Shown: piece by piece, positions 23,597-58,781 of the stretch
Layout: each line of letters begins with the position of its first letter
Position numbering within the stretch: position 1 is the first letter of the stretch
From: Streptomyces sp. HUAS ZL42
Lineage (GTDB): Bacteria; Actinomycetota; Actinomycetes; Streptomycetales; Streptomycetaceae
Direction: 5' to 3'
Length of the DNA stretch: 64,000 nucleotides
NCBI RefSeq assembly: GCF_040782645.1
Contig: NZ_CP160403.1
Coordinates: 2,170,001-2,234,000, forward strand
The notes under the pieces: generated by a model
Database searches by the model: none
Seen by the model: only the letters and a program-made list of their open reading frames with translations
Told to the model about the DNA's origin: nothing
Position numbers and translations under genes: made by a program

Positions 23597-24433
23597 GTGA
23601 GCAGCAAGGTCCCCCCGATCATCCTCAACAACGGCGTCGAGATGCCCCAGCTGGGCTTCGGCGTCTGGCAGGTGCCGGACGCCGAGGCGGAGCGGGCGGT
23701 CGGCACCGCGCTGGAGGCCGGGTACCGCAGCATCGACACAGCGGCGATCTACGGCAACGAAGTGGGCACCGGCAAGGCCATCGCCGTCTCCGGCGTGCCC
23801 CGCGAGGACGTCTTCGTCACCACCAAGCTCTGGAACAGCGCCCAGGGGTACGACTCCACGCTGCGTGCCTTCGACACGTCCCTGGAGAAGCTCGGCCTGG
23901 ACTACGTGGACCTGTACCTGATCCACTGGCCGCTGCCGTCCCGGGACAAGTACGTCGACACGTACAAGGCGTTCGAGAAGCTCCACGCCGACGGCCGTAT
24001 CCGGGCCATCGGAGTCTCCAACTTCCTGCCGGAGCACCTGGAGCGCCTGATCTCCGAGACGTCGGTCGTCCCGGCGGTCAACCAGATCGAACTGCACCCG
24101 CATCTGCAGCAGCGCGCGGCCCGCGAGTACCACGCGGAGCAGGGCATCGCCACCGAGTCCTGGTCACCGCTCGGCTCCGGCAAGGGCCTTCTCGAGGTTC
24201 CGGCGATCGTGGCCATCGCCCAGAAGCACGGCCGCACGCCGGCCCAGGTCGTCCTGCGCTGGCACATCCAACTCGGTCTCGTCGTGATCCCCAAGTCGGT
24301 GACGCCGTCCCGGATCAAGGAGAACATCGAGGTCTTCGACTTCAGTCTGGACACCGAGGACCTGGCGGCGATCAGCGCGCTCGACGAGGACCGGCGGCTG
24401 GGTCCGGATCCCGCGACGTTCGACATCGGCTGA
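23597..24433 (+). CDS. Aldo/keto reductase
   Basis: 278 aa from GTG 23597. The catalytic tetrad of the (beta/alpha)8 family is present: Asp47, Tyr52, Lys77 and His110 (YRSIDTAAIYGNE, TTKLWN, LYLIHWPLP). The NADPH site is IPKSVTPSRIKEN. The 2,5-diketogluconate-reductase-like group is the nearest match. The last 18 codons (LDEDRRLGPDPATFDIG and stop) belong to a 194-bp unit repeated downstream. Confidence 0.94.
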   Translation: MSSKVPPIILNNGVEMPQLGFGVWQVPDAEAERAVGTALEAGYRSIDTAAIYGNEVGTGKAIAVSGVPREDVFVTTKLWNSAQGYDSTLRAFDTSLEKLGLDYVDLYLIHWPLPSRDKYVDTYKAFEKLHADGRIRAIGVSNFLPEHLERLISETSVVPAVNQIELHPHLQQRAAREYHAEQGIATESWSPLGSGKGLLEVPAIVAIAQKHGRTPAQVVLRWHIQLGLVVIPKSVTPSRIKENIEVFDFSLDTEDLAAISALDEDRRLGPDPATFDIG

Positions 24434-24961
24434 GCGCCGGCCCTTCCGGGCCGAGCACCGTTGCGGCGGGGCTCAGCCCGCATGCCGGGGCCCCGCTCAG
24501 TCGGGGCGTACGTGCGTGAAGACGACCCACGCGGGACACGGCGAGCGAGTCACGCCCGGTGAAGATCGGCACGCTCGACGAGGACCGGCGCCTCGGCCCG
24601 GATCCCGCGACGTTCGACATCGGCTGAGCGCCGGCCCTTCCGGGCCGAGCACTCTTCCGGGGGTCGCCCAGCCCGGCCCCCGGGACCGCTGGAGCGGGAC
24701 CGTACATGCGTGAAGACGACCCACGCGGGACACGGCGAGCGAGTCACGCCCGGTGAAGATCGGCACGCTCGACGAGGACCGGCGCCTCGGCCCGGATCCC
24801 GCGACGTACGCCCGGCTGAGCGCCGGCCCTTCCGGGCCGAGCACCGTTGCGGCGGGGCTCAGCCCCTATGCGGGGCCCCGCTCAGTCGGGGCGTACGTCC
24901 GTGAAGACGACCTCGAACTCCTCCAGTCCGGTCACCGTGACATGTGCCTTCGCCGCCCCCT
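24380..24961. repeat. 194-bp tandem repeat made from the ends of two convergent genes
   Basis: Three units start at 24380, 24574 and 24768 (CTCGACGAGGACCGGCG), exactly 194 bp apart. Each contains the last codons of the aldo/keto reductase, its stop region and a hairpin CGGCCCTTCCGGGCCG. Units 1 and 2 then carry GTGAAGACGACC fused to a segment resembling an internal part of the downstream ABM-like gene, with about 80 bp missing. The 98 bp at 24516-24613 and 24710-24807 are identical. The last unit passes into the intact ABM-like gene end. This fills the 448-bp gap 24434-24881; no separate gene is supported there. Confidence 0.92.
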
Positions 24962-25493
24962 CGTGCCGGGCCGCCGCCTGGCCCGCGCGGGACGCGGCGA
25001 GCGACTCGCGGTCGGTGAAGAGGGCCCCGACCAGACCACGGCCGCGCTCCCGGTCGACGAGCAGGGACGTCCTGGCCAGCCCCGGAAGGTGCTCCACTTT
25101 GGGGATCACCGTCGACCGGAACGTCTCGGCGAGCAGATCGGTGTCCTGGGGGTCGAACTCCAGCCTGGTGACCCGCAGTCCGCCTCCCGCCTTCGGCTGG
25201 CGGACCTGGTGGAAGACGACCGCCTCGTAGTTGTCGACGGCCGTCGTCGCCGCGAACGGCTCCAGGAGGGACCCACGCCGTTCACGCATCACCTCGTCGC
25301 TGTTACGCCTGGCCTCCTCCGAGTCCCACCAGCTCACCGCAAGGATCTTGCCGAGCTCCCGGTCAACGAAAATGCCCGCGCCGCGGTATCCCGGGCGTTC
25401 TTCGAGCAGGTCCCGGCCCTGACTGTTCAGTGCCCTGATGGCGGTGTCGATCTGTGCTGGATCGCCGGTCGCGTAGACGGTGCGTACGAACAT
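24882..25493 (-). CDS. Antibiotic biosynthesis monooxygenase-like (dimeric alpha+beta barrel) protein
   Basis: 203 aa from ATG 25493, with GGGAGG upstream. Two similar halves of about 95 residues: the first with RPGYRGAGIFVDRELGKILAVSWWDS, the second with LPGLARTSLLVDRERGRGLVGALFTDRESL. This is the ABM/dimeric barrel plan. No catalytic residues are predictable. The 3' end, convergent with the aldo/keto reductase, was the source of part of the 194-bp repeats. Confidence 0.75.
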   Translation of the reverse strand: MFVRTVYATGDPAQIDTAIRALNSQGRDLLEERPGYRGAGIFVDRELGKILAVSWWDSEEARRNSDEVMRERRGSLLEPFAATTAVDNYEAVVFHQVRQPKAGGGLRVTRLEFDPQDTDLLAETFRSTVIPKVEHLPGLARTSLLVDRERGRGLVGALFTDRESLAASRAGQAAARHEGAAKAHVTVTGLEEFEVVFTDVRPD

Positions 25494-25605
25494 GACGCCT
25501 CCCGGGAAACGCACGTACATCCGAAAGATCCGACAGGCCCAGTCTTCTACCGGAGGAAGGCGGCCGCAACGGGCATTGGTAAGGAAACCTTCCTAACAGA
25601 AGCCC

Positions 25606-49221: not shown

Positions 49222-49280
49222 TTTCGGGCGGCCCGCTCGTCCTCGTCCGCTTTTCAGGCGGCCCGCTCGTCCTCGTCCGC
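49222..49280. repeat. 30-bp tandem duplication over the end of the phosphodiesterase gene
   Basis: Two copies 30 bp apart (49222-49250 and 49252-49280) match over 29 bp with one mismatch. The core GCGGCCCGCTCGTCCTCGTC encodes DEDERAA and lies at the gene's 3' end; the second copy falls just after the stop. Confidence 0.85.
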
Positions 49281-57641: not shown

Positions 57642-58757
57642 ATGACCCAGACGGACGAATTCGGTGAGGAACTCGCGGACTTCGTGCGCCGCATCGCGGA
57701 GCTCAAGGCGGCGCGGTCCGTGCCGACCGGGGACCTGCCGTCGGTTCTGGACGCGGCGATCTTCGAACTCGACCATGTGGCGGGCCAGTTGTGGCCGTGG
57801 TACGAGCGGTTGTCCACGTCGGAGCTGCCCCGCACCGCCCCGGCCGACCGCCAGGAGCAGCAGCTGCTGCGGGCGGTGTTCCAGCGTCTGCCGGTGCCCG
57901 TCGCACTGGTGGACCGGGAGACGGTGGTCCGCCGGCTGAACCTCGCGGCGACGGCCCTGACCGGCGCCCGCGCGGGTTATGCGACGGGCCGCCCGCTGAC
58001 GGGCTTCCTCGCGCACGGCGACCGGGCGGCGTTCCGCTCCCAGGCCGCGGCGGTGGCCCGCGGCGAGGGCGACCGCAGCCTCACCGTCCGCCTCCAGCAG
58101 AGCCCGGCGGTACCGGTGCACACCACCCTCGCCGCGGTACGCCCGTCCGGCGAGCCGCGCGCCGCGGTCCTCACGGTGCTGCAGCCCGCGGGACAGCAGC
58201 TGCCCACCGCCGACGGCCCGCAGACCCCGCTGCCGGACCTCGGCGAGGCGACCCGGCACGCGGCCCTGACGGACCTCCTGGACACGATGACCACGACCCT
58301 GCTGACCGCACCTGCGGGCACGGCCCTGGAACGGGCGGCACACGTCCTGCACGGCTGTTTCGCCGACTGGGTGATCGCCGACACGGGGGCCGCGCGCCTG
58401 TCCCGTACGACCGTGCTGGCACCGTCGGACGAGCAGGCACCGGCACTGGCGTCCCAGGACCCGGCCGACTGCCCCCTGGTCACGGAGGCGGCCCGCACGG
58501 GCTCCACGGCACTGCAGATACGCCCGGAGAACCCGGATGCCTTCGGCCGGGACACGACGGGCGCCCCGTACCTGATCCAGGCGAACGTCACATCACTGCT
58601 GTGCACACCTCTGCCCGGCCAAGGCGTACTGACCTTGTTCCGCTGCGGTACACGCCCGCCGTTTTCCATGGCCGAAGCACAGGCGATGGACATCATGGCC
58701 CGGCACATGGCTCTGGCTGCGGGCAACGCCGTACAGGGGCGCGGGGCTGTGTCGTGA
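57642..58757 (+). CDS. PAS and GAF domain sensor protein
   Basis: 371 aa from ATG 57642 (no clear ribosome site). PAS domain about 75-180 (LLRAVFQRLPVPVALVDRETVVRRLNLAATALTG). GAF-like domain about 205-365 (HAALTDLLDTMTTTLLTAPAGTALERAAHVL to TSLLCTPLPGQGVLTLF). No kinase, phosphatase or cyclase output domain, so it may be a partner of the adjacent sigma factor or ANTAR regulator. The stop codon lies within a 17-bp tandem repeat. Confidence 0.8.
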   Translation: MTQTDEFGEELADFVRRIAELKAARSVPTGDLPSVLDAAIFELDHVAGQLWPWYERLSTSELPRTAPADRQEQQLLRAVFQRLPVPVALVDRETVVRRLNLAATALTGARAGYATGRPLTGFLAHGDRAAFRSQAAAVARGEGDRSLTVRLQQSPAVPVHTTLAAVRPSGEPRAAVLTVLQPAGQQLPTADGPQTPLPDLGEATRHAALTDLLDTMTTTLLTAPAGTALERAAHVLHGCFADWVIADTGAARLSRTTVLAPSDEQAPALASQDPADCPLVTEAARTGSTALQIRPENPDAFGRDTTGAPYLIQANVTSLLCTPLPGQGVLTLFRCGTRPPFSMAEAQAMDIMARHMALAAGNAVQGRGAVS

Positions 58758-58781
58758 AACCCCTTGTGTCGTGAAACCCCT
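58748..58781. repeat. 17-bp perfect tandem repeat at a stop codon
   Basis: TGTGTCGTGAAACCCCT at 58748-58764 and again at 58765-58781. The TGA stop of the PAS/GAF gene is in the first copy and duplicated in the second. The repeat ends exactly one base before the stop of the convergent sigma-factor gene. Confidence 0.9.

Follow-up and report, generated by a model that had tools for sequence, protein, structure and literature searches.

How does a tandem array come to be assembled from the tails of two genes that point at each other, and does it serve the genes that it separates? The question is raised by one locus in the genome of Streptomyces sp. HUAS ZL42, a single contig of 9,866,886 bases, of which we analysed a stretch of 64,000 nucleotides (positions 2170001-2234000, hereafter the window). 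To the left of the array lies an aldo/keto reductase (AKR) gene, an open reading frame on the forward strand (23597-24433, 278 amino acids, PF00248 with E 2.4e-56), and to the right, convergent with it, an ABM-like gene, an open reading frame on the reverse strand (24882-25520, 212 amino acids, PF03992 with E 9.4e-7). The two stop codons are 448 bp apart. Among the named loci encoding relatives of the ABM-like protein, 12 of 13 belonged to Streptomyces and one to Actinacidiphila.

TRF analysis of the window located head-to-tail copies at this single locus, an array at 24370-24912 with a period of 194, 2.8 copies, 85% matches and 4% indels, whose score of 779 compares with 111 for the runner-up among the 12 rows reported. 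Other tandem repeats in the window include one at 49222-49280 (30 bp in two copies, 96%) and one at 58748-58781 (17 bp in two copies, 100%). Unit 1 of the array (24370-24563) consists of the intact AKR tail (24370-24433, the first copy of the AKR part), a hairpin region, T1, and an ABM-tail fragment that lacks 71 bp. Unit 2 (24564-24757) is composed of an AKR-tail fragment that resembles copy 3 in one part and copy 1 in the other, a divergent hairpin region, T2, and an ABM fragment identical to that of unit 1. Unit 3 (24758-24912) contains an AKR-tail fragment with a 2-bp deletion, the hairpin region T3, and the start of the intact ABM tail, which closes the array.

A sequence-only reading of this DNA had proposed a tandem repeat built from the tails of two convergent genes, with two of its units joined to a shortened 3' end of the ABM-like gene, and both points were borne out, by TRF and by the 71-bp-shortened ABM tail in units 1 and 2, respectively. 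Its exact 194-bp spacing applies between the first two copies and into the early part of copy 3, after which the spacing drops to 192 and then 191 as a result of small deletions in copy 3. The last 18 AKR codons and stop that it had assigned to every unit are in fact the last 20 codons plus stop in copies 1 and 2, with two residues changed in copy 2, and the 2-bp deletion of copy 3 falls immediately upstream of the stop. Since the copies differ, the array is unlikely to be a simple assembly echo. A coding repeat was rejected, since the unit length is no multiple of three and no frame is open across the entire array, the longest stop-free stretch covering 68% of it.

Two breakpoints can be read from comparisons of the copies. 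At the duplication breakpoint (24564-24565), identified by lag comparisons and by reading the junction, the two bases GA are common to the ABM fragment and the AKR tail. At 24526-24527 the ABM fragment, until then offset by 385 against the intact gene, becomes offset by 456, which places the 71-bp deletion there, with two shared bases, CC.

The differences between the copies are very unevenly distributed. A comparison of units 1 and 2 shows 33 differences in 194 ungapped positions, namely five in the AKR tail (three of them at third codon positions), 28 in a 54-base divergent patch of the middle copy (24653-24706), on which the sequence-only reading is silent, and none in the last 51 bases, a clustering with P 4e-14. 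The longest identical run at lag 194 spans 101 bases (24513-24613, equal to 24707-24807), rather than the 98 given by the sequence-only reading, and covers the ABM fragment and the start of the AKR fragment; a second run of 55 bases extends over 24404-24458 and 24598-24652. T1 is a near-copy of T3 over 24427-24513, with identical runs at 24427-24479 and 24486-24513, and this interval is likely a short conversion tract: the two regions are nearly identical across the hairpins, and the AKR and ABM parts on both sides differ more.

Up to 24403 (copy-1 numbering) the AKR tail of the middle copy is identical to that of copy 3, and from 24420 onwards it is identical to that of copy 1, a switch that probably reflects an unequal crossover of these two copies within 24404-24419. 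Such a crossover predicts that the ABM fragment of unit 2 is a copy of that of unit 1, and the two show no differences. It also predicts that T2 equals T1, and this prediction fails at 28 of 54 bases, so that an extra conversion step is needed beside the crossover. No donor for the T2 patch was found elsewhere in the same genome, the next best match reaching E 0.047 among the 40 of 72 candidates that were scored, and the idea of an ectopic donor was therefore rejected. The simplest account would be a short conversion that followed the crossover and homogenised T1 and T3, with T2 representing the older T1. The mosaic can thus be accounted for by a single duplication, a single unequal crossover and one short conversion. 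The earlier proposal of a duplication and deletion followed by amplification or gene conversion agrees with the 71-bp deletion, the copy mosaic and the near identity of T1 and T3. As regards the order of events only, the array might instead be an old one of three copies whose flanks were homogenised by repeated conversion, leaving the T2 patch as an unconverted old middle. The sharp contrast in divergence along the copies, with 28 of 54 bases changed in one patch and none of 51 and none of 55 beside it, speaks for this order, but it requires several conversions where one crossover and one conversion suffice, and we regard it as rather doubtful.

To place the array in context, we searched the genome itself and its relatives. 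The genome search yielded this locus only, together with an inverted match inside it, at E up to 0.001 among the 40 of 145 first-look candidates scored. This single occurrence among the scored candidates and the next best E of 0.047 for the T2 patch led us to reject a dispersed repeat family of the MIRU, REP or BIME kind. A plasmid origin was also rejected, as four of 72,556 records in a plasmid collection matched, none over more than 19% of the query, and the best of them (E 1e-22) matched the AKR tail alone. An RNA family was rejected too, the only two matches lying below threshold (E 0.057 and 0.2).

For the relatives, 121 loci around ABM or AKR relatives were collected, 31 of which did not have both genes in the stretch; the remaining 90 gave 50 distinct convergent AKR-ABM junctions with stop-to-stop gaps of 50 to 496 bp. 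A second AKR tail was absent from all 50, and in this same-junction comparison, a check proposed beforehand, the three-copy array was private to this genome. Tandem repeats with a TRF score of at least 50 occurred in 11 of the 50 junctions; they were different and shorter, with a longest period of 38. In four junctions the repeat held a stop codon, with units of 16 bp in 3.2 copies (L017), 22 bp in 4.2 copies (L051), 16 bp in 2.4 copies (L065) and 14 bp in 2.0 copies (L166). The 496-bp gap belongs to locus L102 and carries a 5-bp repeat, CCTCC, in about 13 copies. In a search of 392 genomes of the genus (391 besides its own), the ABM gene reached at most 86% DNA identity elsewhere, and at this best identity no close relative able to polarise the steps was found. 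In a family-level draw, 26 of 394 genomes, the source genome included, gave matches, and those in the other 25 start at query position 389 or later and therefore reach unit 3 and the ABM tail at most. One further locus (L106, G283:C1:3115500-3119500) carries an AKR gene with 87% DNA identity over 925 bp and no ABM match in the stretch; by eye, a repeat of about 25 bp in about three copies lies 3' of that gene.

Whether arrays of this type recur at other gene junctions was addressed by a TRF survey of 2.46 Mb in total, comprising 1.664 Mb of the same genome (G000; the window plus 80 stretches) and 0.4 Mb from each of two other genomes of the genus (G007 and G040), with genes called by a home-made caller at a coding fraction of 0.74-0.79. 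Arrays with a period of at least 60 numbered 24, and 15 of these had a period not divisible by three and formed the main count, whose cut-offs were set after the first 864 kb, including the array studied here, had been viewed. All 15 lay in gaps between genes, 10 convergent, five co-directional and none divergent. Convergent gaps numbered 295 among 1568 and contained 17% of the gap bases, which gives P 2.6e-5 by bases for the convergent excess. The convergent arrays were distributed as 8 of 13 in G000 (7 of 12 without the array studied here), 2 of 2 in G007 and 0 of 0 in G040. Within 100 bp of the 15 arrays there were 19 gene 3' ends and no 5' ends, where arrays placed at random in gaps would have 7.7 and 9.5.

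The 3'-end bias is the firmer of these two results. In the data fetched first, which include the array studied here, 7 of 9 arrays were convergent, with 12 ends of the 3' type to none of the 5' type. In the data fetched later (six arrays) the ends again stood at 7 to 0 (P 0.0005), and the convergent excess was borderline, with 3 of 6 (P 0.06), or 4 of 10 when all long arrays were counted (P 0.07). Varying the settings of the gene caller in 24 ways moved the convergent count between 8 and 11 and P between 6e-6 and 4e-3. Among the nine arrays with a period of at least 60 that is divisible by three, one was convergent, five were co-directional, one was divergent and two were coding; adding the seven non-coding ones gave 11 of 22 convergent and 22 ends of the 3' type to 3 of the 5' type. 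Among gap arrays with a period below 60 and not divisible by three, 14 of 71 were convergent, which is no excess, and the subset with periods of 20-59 showed a weak one (11 of 35, P 0.03-0.05). The same genome also carries large non-coding arrays with 95-98% identity at L181:12718-13728 (period 278), L179:5433-6146 (period 185) and L131:12633-13510 (period 310).

The neighbours of ten other convergent arrays, including one whose period is divisible by three (L180), had Pfam matches in 17 of 20 cases. Units holding the tails of both genes were seen at three loci, the array studied here and two others in the same genome. At L121:12826-13278 (G000:C1:6200001-6220000) a 157-bp unit in 2.9 copies shows the same architecture, combining the tails of the genes for an M14 peptidase and an M1 aminopeptidase. 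At L206:6332-6525 (G000:C1:900001-920000) two 97-bp copies, 99% identical, lie between the genes for an S8 protease and a BTAD regulator, and, judging by the copy layout, the tails of these two genes seem to have overlapped before a duplication that separated them. Within this genome the array belongs to a class of long, locus-specific, non-coding tandem arrays situated at the 3' ends of genes and, in many cases, between convergent ones. Among the literature matches listed, which comprise little subscription literature, no title or abstract opening described a concentration of long tandem arrays in convergent gaps or at 3' ends in Streptomyces.

As to what the array does, the sequence-only reading had held that it multiplies a terminator between the convergent genes. 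Hairpins have indeed been copied, so that the array multiplies them, though they are rather weak, and terminator multiplication can be upheld in a weak form at best. No terminator-like site with a T-run after the hairpin was found on either strand of 24300-25100, where 0.1 was expected; Streptomyces terminators are often without a T-run. The longest perfect stem across T1, T2 and T3 was 7 bp, compared with a median of 14 bp in the gaps of the relatives, 44 of 50 of which had stems of at least 10 bp. The best 50-nt folds reached -29.4 to -32.4 kcal/mol here against a median of -41.6 in the relatives, only one or two of 50 relatives being weaker than the array regions. The 100-nt folds (-52.9 to -59.6 kcal/mol) were below the relatives' median strength of -65.9 and within their ordinary range (10-90%, -75.1 to -51.5), and the folds of T1-T3 were 1.1-2.5 SD better than shuffles (z -1.1 to -2.5). 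T1 and T3 share a long imperfect fold that pairs one stop-codon region with the other and that is lost in T2. Across the survey, among convergent gaps of 40-1200 bp, stems of at least 10 bp occurred in 2 of 9 that contain arrays versus 79 of 176 that do not, so that a trend to weak stems in array-bearing gaps is not clear. As these gaps did not have stronger stems, the hairpin is also unsupported as a cause of arrays.

How then did the array arise? We consider it likely that it originated as a local tandem duplication of the end-joining type across the convergent junction, that it was retained because both genes were left whole, that it needs no function, and that it is a member of the class described above. 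The anatomy, the single place in the genome search, the lack of the array in the 50 relative junctions, the mosaic and, within the sample, the link to 3' ends are observed; end joining, the order of events and neutrality are the parts of this account that we infer. A stretch of about 265 bp (194 + 71), with one end within the AKR tail and the other within the ABM tail, would have been joined head to tail at 2 bp of homology. The segment starts in one gene and ends in the other, and for this reason an undamaged AKR gene remains with the first copy and an undamaged ABM gene with the last. The inner ABM fragment would then have lost 71 bp, an unequal crossover in 24404-24419 would have produced the third copy, and a short conversion would have made T1 and T3 alike again. 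The spare hairpins may add some termination. Breakpoints with few shared bases or with filler were found at the four readable junctions, the breakpoints of most arrays being unreadable: two shared bases here, none at L206 (run minus period equal to zero), about two extra bases at L111 and, by eye, about 12 extra bases at L121. This is the pattern that end joining gives. Two Ku genes (PF02735) are present in the genome, at 171.6 and 159.8 bits, both above the Pfam cut-off, and end joining of the Ku/LigD type with multiple genes has been described in Streptomyces (PMC5124664).

Other explanations have to be weighed against this duplication by end joining. Replication slippage, or template switching driven by hairpins at the junction, could act without end joining, and it would draw on the GC-rich hairpins there and on the small stop-holding repeats of 14-22 bp (L017, L051, L065 and L166), which look slippage-like at the same junction elsewhere. 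A duplication of about 265 bp with 2 bp of homology, or with extra bases, is however not the typical pattern of slippage, the other loci have zero or extra bases, and array-bearing gaps lack stronger stems, which together make slippage improbable. Selection for a terminator array is more improbable still. It would mean that the local hairpin was weakened and that the work of one strong terminator passed to a series of three weak hairpins, each read from either direction, as the contrast between stems of at most 7 bp here and a median of 14 bp in relatives (44 of 50 with at least 10) could suggest, together with the long fold kept by T1 and T3. The absence of any terminator-like site in the region, the divergence of T2 at 28 of 54 bases with loss of that fold, the ordinary 100-nt folds, and the unclear trend to weak stems in other array-bearing convergent gaps (2 of 9 versus 79 of 176) all argue against it.

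A reading that bears on where, rather than how, such duplications form holds that 3' ends, and convergent junctions above all, are Streptomyces hotspots, at which positive supercoils between convergent genes lead to cuts by topoisomerase (gyrase) and Ku-type joining keeps copying the junction, so that arrays mark sites of breakage. Gyrase-mediated illegitimate recombination is known, and the arrays of the main count lie near 3' ends and never near 5' ends, with breakpoints of little or no homology. In E. coli, regions between convergent genes show an enrichment of positive supercoiling (PMC8360656), which also favours torsional breakage. Tolerance gives the same pattern, however, because 5' regions carry promoters, and short arrays with a period below 60 and not divisible by three show no convergent excess (14 of 71, with a weak one of 11 of 35 at 20-59). 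We therefore hold a breakage hotspot to be unlikely, albeit less so than slippage. Were it true, the copying itself would spare the genes, because the outer copies keep both whole, and it would separate overlapping convergent genes such as those of L206. For the 3'-end placement we prefer the simpler explanation that duplications are tolerated there, the promoters being untouched, over more frequent breakage; the data do not separate the two.

The single locus is of modest weight, and it merits a larger survey as a pointer to the class of junction arrays at 3' ends. Should annotated genomes bear out the 3'-end association, it would mark where bacterial chromosomes break or tolerate duplication, and junction arrays would be the sites at which breakage may be told from tolerance, since units marked by gene tails allow the breakpoints to be phased. 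Through such arrays, convergent gaps could also widen and gene tails that overlap could come apart.

Several known systems resemble the array in part. Like the spontaneous tandem duplications by illegitimate recombination confirmed in Salmonella, where 22 junctions had short endpoint homology, with microhomology above 10 bp (PMC3411829), it is a short-range duplication without long homology, but it differs in having 2 bp here and zero or extra bases at the sister loci. Like the close direct repeats of prokaryotes (PMC4060949), it consists of nearby direct repeats, which for some pattern types are commoner in gaps than in genes; the patterns surveyed in that work are 4- to 10-mers separated by at most 50 nt, and the word convergent is absent from its text. 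The single junction array looks like an ordinary, harmless local duplication. REP and BIME elements are palindromic and dispersed and form hairpins between convergent genes; the array shares the hairpins between convergent genes, whereas it is not dispersed, no second place having emerged from the genome searches. MIRU are tandem units that overlap the stop codons of neighbouring genes, as do the units here, but they form one family spread genome-wide, and the unit of this array was found at one place. Bacterial minisatellite or VNTR-type repeats are head-to-tail at one locus, mostly non-coding, with a unit private to the locus. The array is like them in its head-to-tail order at one locus, its mostly non-coding nature and its private unit, and unlike them in that its unit is built from the coding tails of two convergent genes and the gap between them.
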